A stretch of DNA of 64,000 nucleotides from Pseudomonas resinovorans NBRC 106553 (GTDB lineage Bacteria; Pseudomonadota; Gammaproteobacteria; Pseudomonadales; Pseudomonadaceae): positions 1-64,000 of the forward strand of contig NC_021499.1 in NCBI RefSeq assembly GCF_000412695.1, read 5' to 3'. Below the pieces are notes generated by a model that was given only the letters and a program-made list of their open reading frames with translations, ran no database searches and was not told the origin of the DNA. This document shows positions 484 through 9,643 of this stretch, piece after piece. How positions within the stretch are numbered: position 1 is the first letter of the stretch; each line of letters begins with the position of its first letter. A program made the position numbers and the translations under genes.

Positions 484-1947
484 GTGTCAGTGGAACTTTG
501 GCAGCAGTGCGTGGAGCTCTTGCGCGATGAGCTGCCTGCCCAGCAATTCAACACCTGGATCCGCCCATTGCAGGTTGAAGCCGATGGAGACGAGCTGCGC
601 GTTTACGCGCCCAACAGGTTCGTGCTCGATTGGGTCAACGAGAAGTACATGGGGCGGCTCCTCGAGTTGCTCGGCGAACGGGGCAATGGCCTGGCGCCCG
701 CCCTCTCCTTATTAATAGGCAGCAAACGCAGCCCGGCACCGCGCAAGGCACCACCGCCGCCGCCGCCGGTCATGGCTCCGCCGCCCCCTCCCGCACCCGC
801 GCCGTCGCAGATGCGCATCGAGACCGTGGACGAAAGTCGCGACAACCTCGATCCGCTGGCGTCCGTGGTATCCGCTCCGGCCATCCGTACCGAGCGTTCC
901 GTGCAAGTGGAGGGTGCGCTCAAGCACACCAGCTACCTGAACCGTACTTTCACCTTCGAGAACTTCGTCGAGGGCAAGTCCAACCAGCTGGCCCGCGCAG
1001 CGGCCTGGCAGGTGGCGGACAACCCCAAGCATGGTTACAACCCGCTGTTCCTCTATGGTGGTGTCGGCCTTGGCAAGACCCACCTGATGCACGCTGTGGG
1101 TAACCATCTGCTGAAGAAGAACCCGAATGCCAAGGTGGTCTACCTGCACTCCGAGCGTTTCGTGGCGGACATGGTCAAGGCCCTGCAGCTGAATGCCATC
1201 AACGAGTTCAAGCGCTTCTACCGTTCGGTCGACGCGTTGCTTATCGACGACATTCAATTCTTCGCCCGCAAGGAGCGTTCCCAGGAAGAGTTCTTCCATA
1301 CCTTCAACGCCCTGCTAGAGGGTGGTCAGCAGGTGATCCTCACCAGCGACCGCTATCCGAAGGAAATCGAAGGCCTGGAGGAGCGTCTGAAGTCCCGCTT
1401 CGGCTGGGGCCTCACCGTGGCCGTCGAGCCGCCTGAGCTGGAAACGCGTGTAGCGATCCTGATGAAGAAGGCCGAGCAGGCCAAGGTGGATCTACCCCAC
1501 GATGCGGCGTTCTTCATTGCCCAGCGCATACGCTCCAACGTGCGTGAGCTGGAGGGCGCGCTCAAGCGAGTGATCGCGCACGCTCACTTCATGGGTCGGG
1601 ACATCACGATCGAGTTGATCCGCGAGTCGCTCAAGGACCTTCTGGCCCTGCAGGACAAGCTGGTCAGCATCGACAATATCCAGCGCACGGTAGTCGAGTA
1701 CTACAAGATCAAGATGTCCGACATGCTCTCCAAGCGCCGCTCGCGCTCGGTGGCCAGGCCGCGACAGGTCGCGATGGCGTTGTCCAAGGAATTGACCAAC
1801 CACAGCTTGCCGGAAATCGGCGACGCTTTCGGCGGACGAGACCACACCACTGTGCTCCACGCCTGTCGTAAGATTGCGCAATTAAGGGAATCCGACGCGG
1901 ACATTCGCGAGGATTACAAGAATCTGCTGCGTACTTTGACCACCTGA
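484..1947 (+). CDS. dnaA: Chromosomal replication initiator protein DnaA
   Basis: DnaA is the AAA+ initiator that binds DnaA boxes and melts oriC. The 487-residue protein shows all four domains. The N-terminal helicase-loading region starts [16 protein letters not shown] strikingly proline-rich linker covers about residues 80-110. The AAA+ core has Walker A GGVGLGKT (192-199) and Walker B LLIDD (252-256). The C-terminal DNA-binding domain carries GGRDHTTV (450-457). The start is GTG at 484, because the reading MSVELWQQC matches the family N-terminus. It is the first gene of the dnaA-dnaN-recF-gyrB array, 29 nt before dnaN, and is likely autoregulated through the box over its -35. Confidence 0.98.
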
Positions 1948-1976
1948 TCGCAGCCCAAGAGGCAAGGGACTAGACC

Positions 1977-3080
1977 ATGCATTTCACAATTCAACGCGAA
2001 GCCCTGTTGAAACCCCTGCAACTGGTCGCCGGCGTCGTCGAGCGCCGCCAGACCTTGCCGGTCCTCTCCAACGTATTGCTGGTAGTCGAAGGCCAGCAGC
2101 TCTCGCTGACCGGTACCGACCTCGAGGTCGAACTGGTTGGACGGGTTGCCCTGGAAGAACCGGCTGAGCCAGGTGAGATCACCGTACCGGCGCGCAAACT
2201 GATGGACATCTGCAAGAGCCTGCCCAGCGATGCACTGATCGACATCCGTGTCGACGAGCAGAAGCTGCTGATCAAGGCAGGGCGCAGCCGCTTCACGCTT
2301 TCCACGCTGCCGGCCAACGACTTCCCCACCGTCGAGGAAGGCCCGGGTTCGCTGAACATCAGCCTGGTCCAGAGCAAACTGCGCCGCCTGATCGAGCGCA
2401 CCAGCTTCGCGATGGCTCAGCAGGATGTGCGTTACTACCTCAACGGCATGCTGCTGGAAGTGAATGCCGGCACCCTGCGCGCTGTTGCCACCGACGGTCA
2501 CCGCCTGGCCATGTGTGCCATGCAGACTGGTATCGAAGGTCTGGATCGCCACCAGGTGATCGTGCCGCGCAAGGGCATCCTGGAACTGGCGCGTCTGCTG
2601 ACCGAGCAGGACGGTGAAGTAGGTATCGTTCTGGGCCAACACCACATCCGCGCTACCACTGGCGAATTCACCTTCACCTCCAAGCTGGTGGACGGCAAGT
2701 TCCCGGACTACGAGCGTGTTCTGCCGCGTGGTGGCGACAAGCTGGTCGTTGGCGACCGTCAGGCTCTGCGCGAGGCGTTCAGCCGTACCGCGATCCTGTC
2801 CAACGAGAAGTACCGTGGCATTCGCCTGACCCTGGCGTCCGGCCTGCTGAAAATCCAGGCCAACAACCCGGAGCAGGAAGAGGCTGAGGAAGAAGTGGCC
2901 GTGGACTACAACGGCAGCAACCTGGAGATCGGCTTCAACGTGAGCTATCTCCTGGACGTGTTGGGCGTCATGTCCACCGAGCAGGTTCGTCTGATCCTGT
3001 CCGATGCCAACAGCAGTGCCCTGGTTCAGGAAGCCGACAACGACGATTCGTCCTACGTTGTCATGCCGATGCGCCTGTAA
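1977..3080 (+). CDS. dnaN: DNA polymerase III beta sliding clamp
   Basis: DnaN is the ring-shaped clamp that tethers DNA polymerase III to the template. It also docks MutS, Pol IV and Hda-type partners through its hydrophobic cleft. The 367-residue length is the family norm (three repeated clamp domains of about 120 residues). It begins [17 protein letters not shown] and ends with the conserved VMPMRL tail that forms part of the cleft. It lies 29 nt after dnaA and 7 nt before recF, which suggests co-transcription. Nothing is unusual about it. Confidence 0.98.
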
Positions 3081-3087
3081 CGACTCA

Positions 3088-6611
<3,524 letters not shown>

Positions 6612-7852: not shown

Positions 7853-8704
7853 ATGCGTATCATCCTCAGCCGCAAGGGCTTCGATTCATCGGCTGGCGGC
7901 TTCCCAAGTCCAATTCTCCCGGATGGTCGACTGTGCTCGCTGCCCATCCCGGACCCGGCATCGTCGGTGAGCTATTCGAGCATCGATCACGACGGCATCG
8001 ACCTGGGCGAGTTGCTGGTCGGCCTGACCGGAGAGGCGTCCTGGCGAAGCCGGGGCGCTCACCTGGATCCGGACCTGCGTGCCGATGCGCTGCCACGCCG
8101 TCCTGGCTGGAAGCCTCTGCTCGGGCAGAGCGGCAGCGCTCAAGGGCATCTGCGCAACGAGGGAGTGGTACCGGGGGATCTGTTCCTGTTTTTCGGCTCC
8201 TTTCGCTCCGTCCAGACGATGAAGGATGGGTGGCGTTTTTGTCCGGAGCAGACGCCCATTCAGGTCATCTGGGGCTGGCTGCAGGTGAGTGAAATCCTCA
8301 AGGTCGATGAGCTGGCGGCGGACGCCATGGACTGGGCGCGTTATCACCCACACTTCAACTATGCGGCCGATACGACCAACACCCTGTACCTGGCCAGGGA
8401 CGAGCTGAGGGTGGAGGGCGTATCAACCCCGTATCCGGGCGCCGGCACCTTCCGCTATCTGCATGAGCGCCTGCAACTCACCGTACCCGGCTCCAGGCCG
8501 CAGACCCGCTGGCAGTTGCCGCTGTGCTTGGCACCCGCCGCAGGGCACACGGGGCTGAGCTTCCACCGCAACCCCTCTCGCTGGAGCCTGGAGGCTGATC
8601 GCTGCTTGCTGGATAGCGCATTCAGGGGGCAGGAATTCGTCTTTGACGCGACGGGCCAGAAGGCGGTGCTGGGCTGGGTCGAATCGCTGCTGGCGTGCGG
8701 CTGA
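7853..8704 (+). CDS. Nmad3-like (nucleotide modification associated) family protein
   Basis: This protein has 283 residues. Its N-terminus MRIILSRKGFDSSAGGFPSP, followed by PDG and SLPIPDP, is the hallmark I associate with the Nmad3 family, described around DNA-base-modification and phage-conflict loci. Further family-like segments are AHLDPDLR, GDLFLFFGSFR and IWGWLQVSEI. The biochemical activity is not established to my knowledge, so I give no reaction. The ATG at 7853 follows a purine-rich GGGGGA. Upstream is a lipoprotein gene and downstream an sRNA locus, with no methyltransferase or nuclease partner nearby. The family call is from memory of motifs and needs a profile search. Confidence 0.65.
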   Translation: MRIILSRKGFDSSAGGFPSPILPDGRLCSLPIPDPASSVSYSSIDHDGIDLGELLVGLTGEASWRSRGAHLDPDLRADALPRRPGWKPLLGQSGSAQGHLRNEGVVPGDLFLFFGSFRSVQTMKDGWRFCPEQTPIQVIWGWLQVSEILKVDELAADAMDWARYHPHFNYAADTTNTLYLARDELRVEGVSTPYPGAGTFRYLHERLQLTVPGSRPQTRWQLPLCLAPAAGHTGLSFHRNPSRWSLEADRCLLDSAFRGQEFVFDATGQKAVLGWVESLLACG

Positions 8705-8747: not shown

Positions 8748-8799
8748 GGTTACGCCACGCCAACATGGGGTAACAATTGACCGTCAAAGCTGTTACCCC
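8748..8799. promoter_or_regulatory. CbrB-type upstream activating palindromes
   Basis: GGGGTAACA (8767-8775) and TGTTACCCC (8791-8799) form a perfect 9-bp inverted repeat with a 15-bp spacer. A further half-site GGTTAC at 8748-8753 pairs with the GTAACA at 8770-8775, and a GTTACC lies at 8734-8739. TGTTAC/GTAACA palindromes are the reported binding pattern of CbrB, the sigma54 activator of crcZ. The site sits about 140-190 bp upstream of the predicted transcript start, a typical enhancer distance. Confidence 0.7.
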
Positions 8800-8915
8800 A
8801 GGCTCGAGGCAGGGGTTCCCGGACGGGTCGTATGGGAACATTCTAGGGGGAGTGTAGGCCGCGTCTGAAAGCAGATTTTTTATAAATATATGATTTATAA
8901 GGACTTTATAATTTC

Positions 8916-8931
8916 TGGCACGACTCCTGCT
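8916..8931 (+). promoter_or_regulatory. Sigma54 (RpoN) promoter
   Basis: TGGCACGACTCCTGCT carries the invariant GG (8917-8918) and GC (8929-8930) separated by exactly 10 bp, with the classic TGGCACG -24 element. Transcription should begin near 8941-8943. Confidence 0.9.
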
Positions 8932-8941
8932 CTATATCTGG

Positions 8942-9290
8942 CACAACAACAATAAAAAGCTTCAAAAAGAATATTTCGACTCTGAAAAAACAAAAACAAC
9001 AGCCCAGAGAAGAAGCAAACCGATTTTTTTGGAGAGGGTGTGCCGTTCCGCACCCGGCAACTAGAGCAACAGAACAATAAAACTACCTTGAGGTAGCGGC
9101 GCTCCGGTTGGTTCAGAAATGACGATGGCATGATCAGCGTCCAAAAAAATCCGTTTGCCCTAGGTCCATGTTGGGACTAGCCAATTCTGACTCGTTGGAG
9201 TCAGTAGCGAAGAACAACAACGAACACGATAAAAACAACAACAATAAAAGAAAAACATTTGAGGGGAGCCCAGGCTCCCCTCAGTGCTTT
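8942..9290 (+). ncRNA. CrcZ/CrcY/CrcX-family small RNA (Hfq/Crc sequestering)
   Basis: This is an untranslated locus of about 345 nt, in the size range of CrcZ-type RNAs. It has a sigma54 promoter, CbrB-like sites upstream and a terminator hairpin. It contains repeated AAnAAnAA catabolite-activity motifs at 8945-8958, 8964-8971, 8989-8999, 9073-9080, 9213-9220 and 9231-9255. Such motifs bind the Hfq distal face with Crc, so the RNA titrates Hfq/Crc and relieves catabolite repression when CbrAB is active. Internal hairpins lie at about 9036-9055 and 9187-9204. The locus is not beside cbrB-pcnB, where canonical crcZ resides, so it is probably a second family member. The ORFs overlapping it on either strand are compositionally odd and dismissed. 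Confidence 0.87.
9261..9290 (+). terminator. Terminator of the Crc-type sRNA
   Basis: Ten-base arms GAGGGGAGCC (9261-9270) and GGCTCCCCTC (9273-9282) form a very stable hairpin immediately after the last A-rich motif. The T content behind it is modest (GTGCTTTCC). Confidence 0.75.
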
Positions 9291-9451
9291 CCGGCTTCCG
9301 CAAAATCATTCCCCACCAATTCTTCCCGAAACGCCCCTGGCGAGGTTTGCGCATGTGCCAATCTTGGGCGCGCCCCTCCCCCTGCCCGGACCGAGAAGGC
9401 TACCCTGGTGGCGATTTCAGGCCCGCTGGCGGCCATACGAAGGAGTGCACG

Positions 9452-9643
9452 ATGGATGAGGACAAGGGCGACGAACTGATCACCGATGAGGAGATCAGCG
9501 CCTACATGGTGAGGCAGTTGCGTTCAGGAAGGGTCAAGCCGGCGGTGCTGGTGGTGCTCACCGAAAAGAACTACCCGCAGGTGGACCGCGAGCGGATCAT
9601 CCGCTGCTTCAACGCGCTGGATTCGACCTACCTGAAAGGCTGA
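9452..9643 (+). CDS. Small conserved-looking protein, 63 residues, function unknown
   Basis: The ATG at 9452 is preceded by AAGGAG (9440-9445) with 6-nt spacing, far better than any upstream start in this frame. The product is soluble and charged, with a motif-like stretch LITDEEISAYMVRQLRSGR and an end RCFNALDSTYLKG. It has no signal peptide or membrane segment. I do not recognise the family. It lies between the sRNA terminator and two hairpins that follow its stop. Confidence 0.65.
   Translation: MDEDKGDELITDEEISAYMVRQLRSGRVKPAVLVVLTEKNYPQVDRERIIRCFNALDSTYLKG

Follow-up and report, generated by a model that had tools for sequence, protein, structure and literature searches.

A second CrcZ/CrcY/CrcX-family small RNA, probably CrcY-like, at the gyrB side of the Pseudomonas resinovorans chromosome

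The genome of P. resinovorans CA10, a carbazole degrader, consists of two contigs with 6,484,828 bases. The stretch analysed here, called the window, is bases 1-64000 of the larger one, C1 (6,285,863 bases). Four genes at window 484-6611 are presumably dnaA, dnaN, recF and gyrB, judging from their translations. They are followed by a gene for an Nmad3-domain protein (Pfam PF18754, 272 bits) at 7853-8704, which lies just upstream of a small RNA. Downstream of the RNA is a short open reading frame (ORF).

8943..9290, + strand: CrcZ/CrcY-family small RNA, CrcY-like (Rfam match 8943-9315; 5' and 3' ends predicted)
9452..9643, + strand: 63-codon ORF, no Pfam match

An earlier note on this DNA had proposed an RNA at 8942..9290 between an Nmad3-like gene and a 63-residue ORF. 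Both flanks stand, with the ORF now placed at 9452-9643. The RNA stands as well, with its extent adjusted. The Rfam match starts at 8943, and the RNA is about 344 nt long, reaching just beyond a terminal hairpin that ends at 9283.

The Rfam CrcZ model (RF01675) matches window 8943-9315 on the plus strand with 210.5 bits, against a gathering score of 95. The match spans the whole model, positions 1-398 of 398, so the proposed CrcZ/CrcY/CrcX-type identity is borne out. The model has a single further match in this genome, at 5,395,950 (337.7 bits). This second match occupies L046 6051-6448, between genes that we take from their translations to be cbrB (L046 4427-5854) and pcnB (L046 6541-7953). 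Since it sits between cbrB and pcnB, this match is the canonical crcZ, which makes the window RNA an additional copy, as had been suspected. The window RNA lies outside the cbrB-pcnB interval that marks CrcZ proper and is 54% identical to crcZ of the same genome. A home on plasmids or phages was considered and dropped, as blastn gave no match of the window RNA among plasmids (E 1e-5) or phages (E 0.01). In viral contigs, one exact core pattern returned 14 stretches, none of which reached the Rfam CrcZ gathering score. Judged by its sequence, the window RNA is a real, conserved and ordinary member of a known family, whose mechanism would be that of its relatives.

The site is shared across the genus. 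RF01675 is present in all 18 same-genus genomes searched, and 14 of them have more than one copy. In 14 of the 18, the second copy lies between gyrB and the 63-codon ORF or a nearby acyltransferase gene. The acyltransferase gene is downstream of the RNA and convergent with it in all 14 carriers. gyrB is about 1-4 kb upstream in 12 of the 14, CA10 included, and 37 kb (G001) or 44 kb (G006) upstream in the others. The view that this copy sits away from cbrB-pcnB at a non-canonical site thus needs qualifying: it is off cbrB-pcnB, yet the gyrB side is the usual place for it in the genus.

Four genomes (G004, G007, G008 and G017) have one RF01675 match only. In three of them the acyltransferase gene is close to gyrB, and the G007 stretch is without gyrB. 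The gyrB-side stretches of G004 and G008 were scanned and gave no CrcZ match. All four same-genus genomes without the RNA keep the 63-codon ORF, which is therefore an old neighbour outside the sRNA unit. The RNA was either gained between gyrB and this ORF or lost in that branch, and its absence from 4 of 18 genomes implies that it is dispensable. Outside the genus, the survey covered 119 of 130 sampled genomes. In four of these (G074, G137, G032 and G046), a copy and the acyltransferase gene share a contig and lie at most 2.5 kb apart; further cases may be masked by broken contigs. P. jinjuensis (L054, 157.9 bits) is a named case. Group g14 has two copies in 13 of 21 genomes, none of which lies on the acyltransferase contig at a distance of 2.5 kb or less. 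Among the matches listed for the CrcZ/CrcY/CrcX literature, no description of a family copy at the gyrB site was found. What is new here is this site, an A-rich Hfq tract longer than that of crcZ, and an extra, mobile-looking copy in two relatives.

Nmad3 was considered as a partner of the RNA and rejected. In G002, G014 and G016 the RNA has no nmad3 match as a neighbour, and stretches L055, L056 and L059 have nmad3 but no CrcZ match. Presence of the nmad3 gene varies at the gyrB-side spot among relatives, as in a variable region. Separately, an rsmX RNA lies no more than a few kb from nmad3 in three stretches (L037:4385-4485, L055:5802-5907 and L056:9484-9591). gyrB is also near in L056, and a gyrB-site CrcZ-family RNA is also near in L037.

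The region upstream of the RNA carries candidate elements of a CbrB-activated promoter.

8770..8775, + strand: CbrB-type subsite R1, GTAACA, at -173
8791..8796, + strand: CbrB-type subsite F1, TGTTAC, at -152
8824..8840, + strand: conserved promoter block CGGGTCGTATGGGAACA, possibly a degenerate CbrB R2 (GGAACA)
8883..8895, + strand: IHF-like AT-rich site, between the CbrB subsites and the promoter
8916..8931, + strand: sigma54 promoter TGGCACGACTCCTGCT (-24/-12), at -26 of the RNA start given by Rfam

The sigma54 match is not significant by itself, with 0.54 expected in the window and at least one in 42 of 100 shuffles. Its position and conservation make the evidence strong. It lies at -26 of an RNA start that was set independently, and GG-N10-GC is kept at -26 in 14 of 14 same-genus gyrB-site copies, so the promoter proposed in the earlier note holds. 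F1 is found at -149 to -152 in 13 of these 14 copies (inexact in G013) and at -151 in all 14 same-genus crcZ copies examined, which come from 14 of the 18 genomes. GTAACA occurs at -173 to -184 in 11 of the 14 gyrB-site copies and is absent from G001, G002 and G013. Same-genus crcZ copies have GTAACA near -130, whereas the window RNA has it at -173. The R2 position of crcZ, GTAACA near -130, has no exact counterpart in the window promoter, where GGAACA stands in the conserved block. The window RNA thus has exact F1 and R1-like subsites and an R2 position without GTAACA. The block CGGGTCGTAWGGGAACA, with variants, is conserved across 18 aligned copies, and an R2 role for it is putative. The IHF-like site at 8883..8895 has, on our assumption of the IHF consensus, one mismatch in CA10.

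The CbrB subsite sequences and the role of IHF at crcZ and crcY come from P. putida (PMC6296734). There, loss of F1 from the crcY promoter is costliest and loss of R1 is without effect. With F1 dominant and R1 dispensable in P. putida crcY, the subsite pattern of the window RNA is compatible with CbrB control, and dependence on RpoN and CbrB is predicted. An ANR site is reported for P. ogarae crcY (PMC12552145). Such a site was rejected here, since no TTGAY-N4-RTCAA lies within 260 nt upstream in any of 50 copies.

The RNA holds 15 AAnAAnAA motifs in six clusters across 8945-9255.

8945..8958, + strand: A-rich cluster 1, ARN triplets, predicted Hfq distal-face site
8964..8971, + strand: A-rich cluster 2
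8986..8999, + strand: A-rich cluster 3, in the loop of the first consensus hairpin; a six-triplet ARN run begins here
9073..9080, + strand: A-rich cluster 4
9210..9220, + strand: A-rich cluster 5
9231..9255, + strand: A-rich cluster 6, holding a run of eight ARN triplets

None of 2000 dinucleotide shuffles of the RNA reaches 15 motifs, and one of 2000 reaches six clusters. Elsewhere in the window there is at most one motif per 344-base segment (step 50, both strands). The dense motifs in at least six clusters that had been noticed are therefore real. ARN triplets are favoured by the Hfq distal face, and CrcZ is proposed to gather several Hfq/Crc units as a sponge, according to PMC6422490 (for ARN also PMC8121710). 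The eight-triplet run at 9231-9254 is the longest among the 50 RNAs compared, and the CA10 RNA has two six-triplet sites that do not overlap. Of the 14 same-genus gyrB-site copies, 13 have one or more six-triplet ARN sites, compared to just 2 of 14 same-genus crcZ copies and 2 of 22 other copies. By this count the contrast with crcZ is a matter of degree. The longer run suggests a stronger single Hfq site.

The A-rich clusters are set in a stable predicted fold.

9022..9032, + strand: 5' arm of the central helix, GATTTTTTTGG
9141..9151, + strand: 3' arm of the central helix, CCAAAAAAATC, adjoining a conserved GTTTGC
9260..9283, + strand: terminal hairpin

The minimum free energy of the window RNA has z = -5.8 against 100 shuffles. 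Together with the hairpin at 9260-9283, this agrees with the internal and terminal hairpins described earlier. The plus-strand tail of the terminal hairpin is just moderately T-rich, and a simple terminator scan called the hairpin on the minus strand alone. Alignment A1, which covers 19 of the 50 RNAs (gyrB-site lineage plus CrcY types), was made without fitting to the structure, whereas the RNAalifold consensus structure was derived from A1. Two-sided changes occur in nine of the 47 consensus pairs and fill 25 cells; shuffles give 7.7, and sliding gives no more than 6. Further pair types are not above shuffles (18 versus 16.0, 56 of 500 as high). Thirty of the 47 pairs are invariant, including most of the long central helix, and the covariation term is small (-1.93 kcal/mol). 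A conserved core, CAAA.AAAT..GTTTGC, is present in the window RNA and in the g14 second copies, and in altered form in crcZ.

A protein-coding reading was rejected because no ORF holds frame and length across relatives. In the first 345 nt of 14 copies, no plus-strand reading stays open for more than 25-59 codons and no minus-strand one for more than 49-101, depending on the copy. Of the 14, 8 have an ATG at RNA position 226-229. It opens a 103-codon ORF in CA10 (9168-9479), and its frame shifts between copies, the shortest reading being 10 codons. The lack of a credible ORF is thus confirmed as lack of one conserved over the 14 copies.

These features could also belong to a family member with a changed regulator or partner, such as a pure Hfq sponge or a base-pairing sRNA that uses GTTTGC. 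The CbrB subsite pattern unlike that of crcZ, the longer ARN runs and the conserved CAAA.AAAT..GTTTGC core would fit such a change. However, F1, the most important subsite in P. putida crcY (PMC6296734), is retained, and the core is shared by the g14 second copies and, altered, by crcZ. We consider a changed regulator or partner quite improbable.

Conservation is concentrated in the RNA. Over 13 of the 14 gyrB-site copies, with the divergent G001 copy left out, mean pairwise identity is 90.8% in the RNA and 58-62% in the promoter zones. It is 37-48% in the flank zones -400 to -200 and +360 to +500, and 58% in the zone +500 to +600, within the 63-codon ORF. In nine paired genomes the window-type RNA and crcZ are about equally conserved (mean identity 89.3% and 91.4%). 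With the divergent G001 copy, making ten genomes, the values are 84.0% and 91.3%. An idea that the window RNA changes much faster than crcZ rested mainly on this odd copy and was dropped. The slightly greater change, and the 4 of 18 same-genus genomes with a single copy only, are what a decayed relic that has lost transcription or Hfq/Crc binding might leave. A relic should not be conserved far beyond its flanks, with compensatory changes, retained sigma54 and CbrB sites, and six-triplet ARN sites commoner than in crcZ. We give a relic very little credence.

The window RNA does not group with the crcZ copies. In a tree built from 50 family members, all crcZ rows fall on one side of a branch with support 99/92 and the window RNA falls on the other; in a reduced tree, with seven of the 50 left out as long or odd, the split has 100/99. 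A recent duplicate of the resident crcZ, matching it in sequence and role, would have the family, the promoter layout and the F1 position in common with it, but is made highly improbable by the 54% identity and by these branches. The separateness of the window RNA from crcZ is well supported by the sequence trees.

Support for tying the window RNA to the g14 second copies is 96/84 when all rows are used and falls to 88/59 in the reduced tree. We infer that the g14 second copies are the P. putida-type CrcY and, from its coordinates, that one further copy is A. vinelandii CrcY. The A. vinelandii-type copy moves between the full and reduced trees, and an alternative tree, which pairs the gyrB-site lineage with crcZ and leaves the CrcY types outside, survives the AU test (p-AU 0.26). 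The window RNA comes closest to the CrcY types, and its grouping with them is not firm.

P. putida KT2440 crcY is PP3540b, at 4,013,035 (4.01 Mb), and A. vinelandii crcY lies between Avin04820 and Avin04790 (PMC6296734 and PMC5429807, respectively). In three genomes presumed to carry the P. putida type (G083, G076 and G122), the second copy and the gyrB-side acyltransferase gene share a contig but are more than 2 Mb apart. The window locus therefore differs from that of P. putida crcY. With CrcY of KT2440 and A. vinelandii the window RNA shares the Rfam family, the tree side against all crcZ rows, the sigma54 promoter, the F1 subsite, A-rich clusters and hairpins. It differs in its place between gyrB and the acyltransferase gene, in its longer 3' ARN run, and in sequence, being 57-59% identical to the rows that we assign to CrcY types. 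With CrcZ it shares the family, promoter layout and A-rich clusters, and differs in locus, identity and tree side. By its description, CrcX of P. syringae is likewise an extra family member beyond crcZ under CbrB control (PMC8871633).

We therefore think it very probable that the window encodes a second sRNA that titrates Hfq/Crc, a CrcZ/CrcY/CrcX-family member whose lineage is distinct from crcZ and probably CrcY-like, and which has settled at the gyrB side in the genus. Its transcription, induction, binding of Hfq/Crc and effect on catabolite repression are predicted by analogy. When the preferred carbon source is exhausted, CbrB would bind at about -150 to -175, with IHF assisting, and activate sigma54-RNA polymerase at the -24/-12 site. 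This activation model draws on the conserved sites and on the tested P. putida promoters. Between its stable helices, the RNA of about 344 nt would then expose five or six stretches rich in A and in ARN triplets. By binding the Hfq distal face together with Crc, these would draw Hfq/Crc off catabolic mRNAs in concert with crcZ. For CA10, this predicts a second catabolite-repression decoy to weigh in studies of aromatic degradation.

The earlier note had also suggested higher gene dosage near the origin. crcZ lies at 0.28 of the replichore from the origin. Assuming symmetric replichores, the ratio of window copy to crcZ is 1.10, 1.21 and 1.34 at C/tau 0.5, 1 and 1.5. An excess over crcZ is thus expected, but at 1.10-1.34x it is small and the idea is weak. 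Any effect should be small, because RNAs of the family should come into play when the carbon source is poor and growth is slow.

Two relatives carry a further family RNA. In G001 and G006, inserts of about 37 and 44 kb separate gyrB from the gyrB-site RNA, and each holds an extra family RNA with a promoter.

G001:C63:92241-129502: insert (L073, L031, L074, L032)
G006:C62:296311-340357: insert (L100, L075, L036, L076, L037)

Both inserts have defence genes and Tn7-like transposition genes, the latter for TnsA-like (below the Pfam cut-off in G006), Mu-transposase-C, TniB and TniQ proteins. The G001 insert also encodes a type I methylase. The G006 insert encodes a recombinase, RepB/ParB-like proteins and an AEP-TOTE (TOTE conflict) protein, with a 91% identical stretch in G001. 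The two extra RNA copies match each other at 90% identity, and no other RNA compared exceeds 69% identity to either. A 657-bp match between them, at 86%, includes the promoter. A search for Tn7-like element ends around both copies found no convincing terminal repeats, and the G001 extra copy has no blastn match in plasmids. Proteins of 387 aa (L031:6406-7569) and 398 aa (L036:4630-5826), alike by eye and without Pfam match, adjoin the extra copies, on the downstream side in one insert and on the upstream side in the second.

RNAs of the gyrB-site lineage may be carried as small promoter-plus-RNA cassettes in the gyrB-side variable region, and the CA10 copy could stem from a similar arrival that was later fixed. 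We hold this only tentatively and think it rather unlikely. If it is true, elements bearing such cassettes could loosen the catabolite repression of their host in their own interest. Extra copies in mobile-looking inserts pose the question whether such decoys travel. Extra copies of the family sit at different chromosomal sites in different genera, and the cbrB-side copy is the common one.

Copy number also varies in other groups. G051, an assembly rated complete, gave no CrcZ match at E 0.001, which may reflect an assembly gap. In g6, 12 of 13 genomes have second CrcZ-like matches of 244-254 nt and 56-69 bits, below the gathering score. Eight g10 genomes (G026, G040, G060, G068, G075, G082, G088 and G094) have two to five CrcZ-family copies. 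Three of these, G026, G060 and G082, exceed the three copies mentioned for P. syringae, with five in G082.
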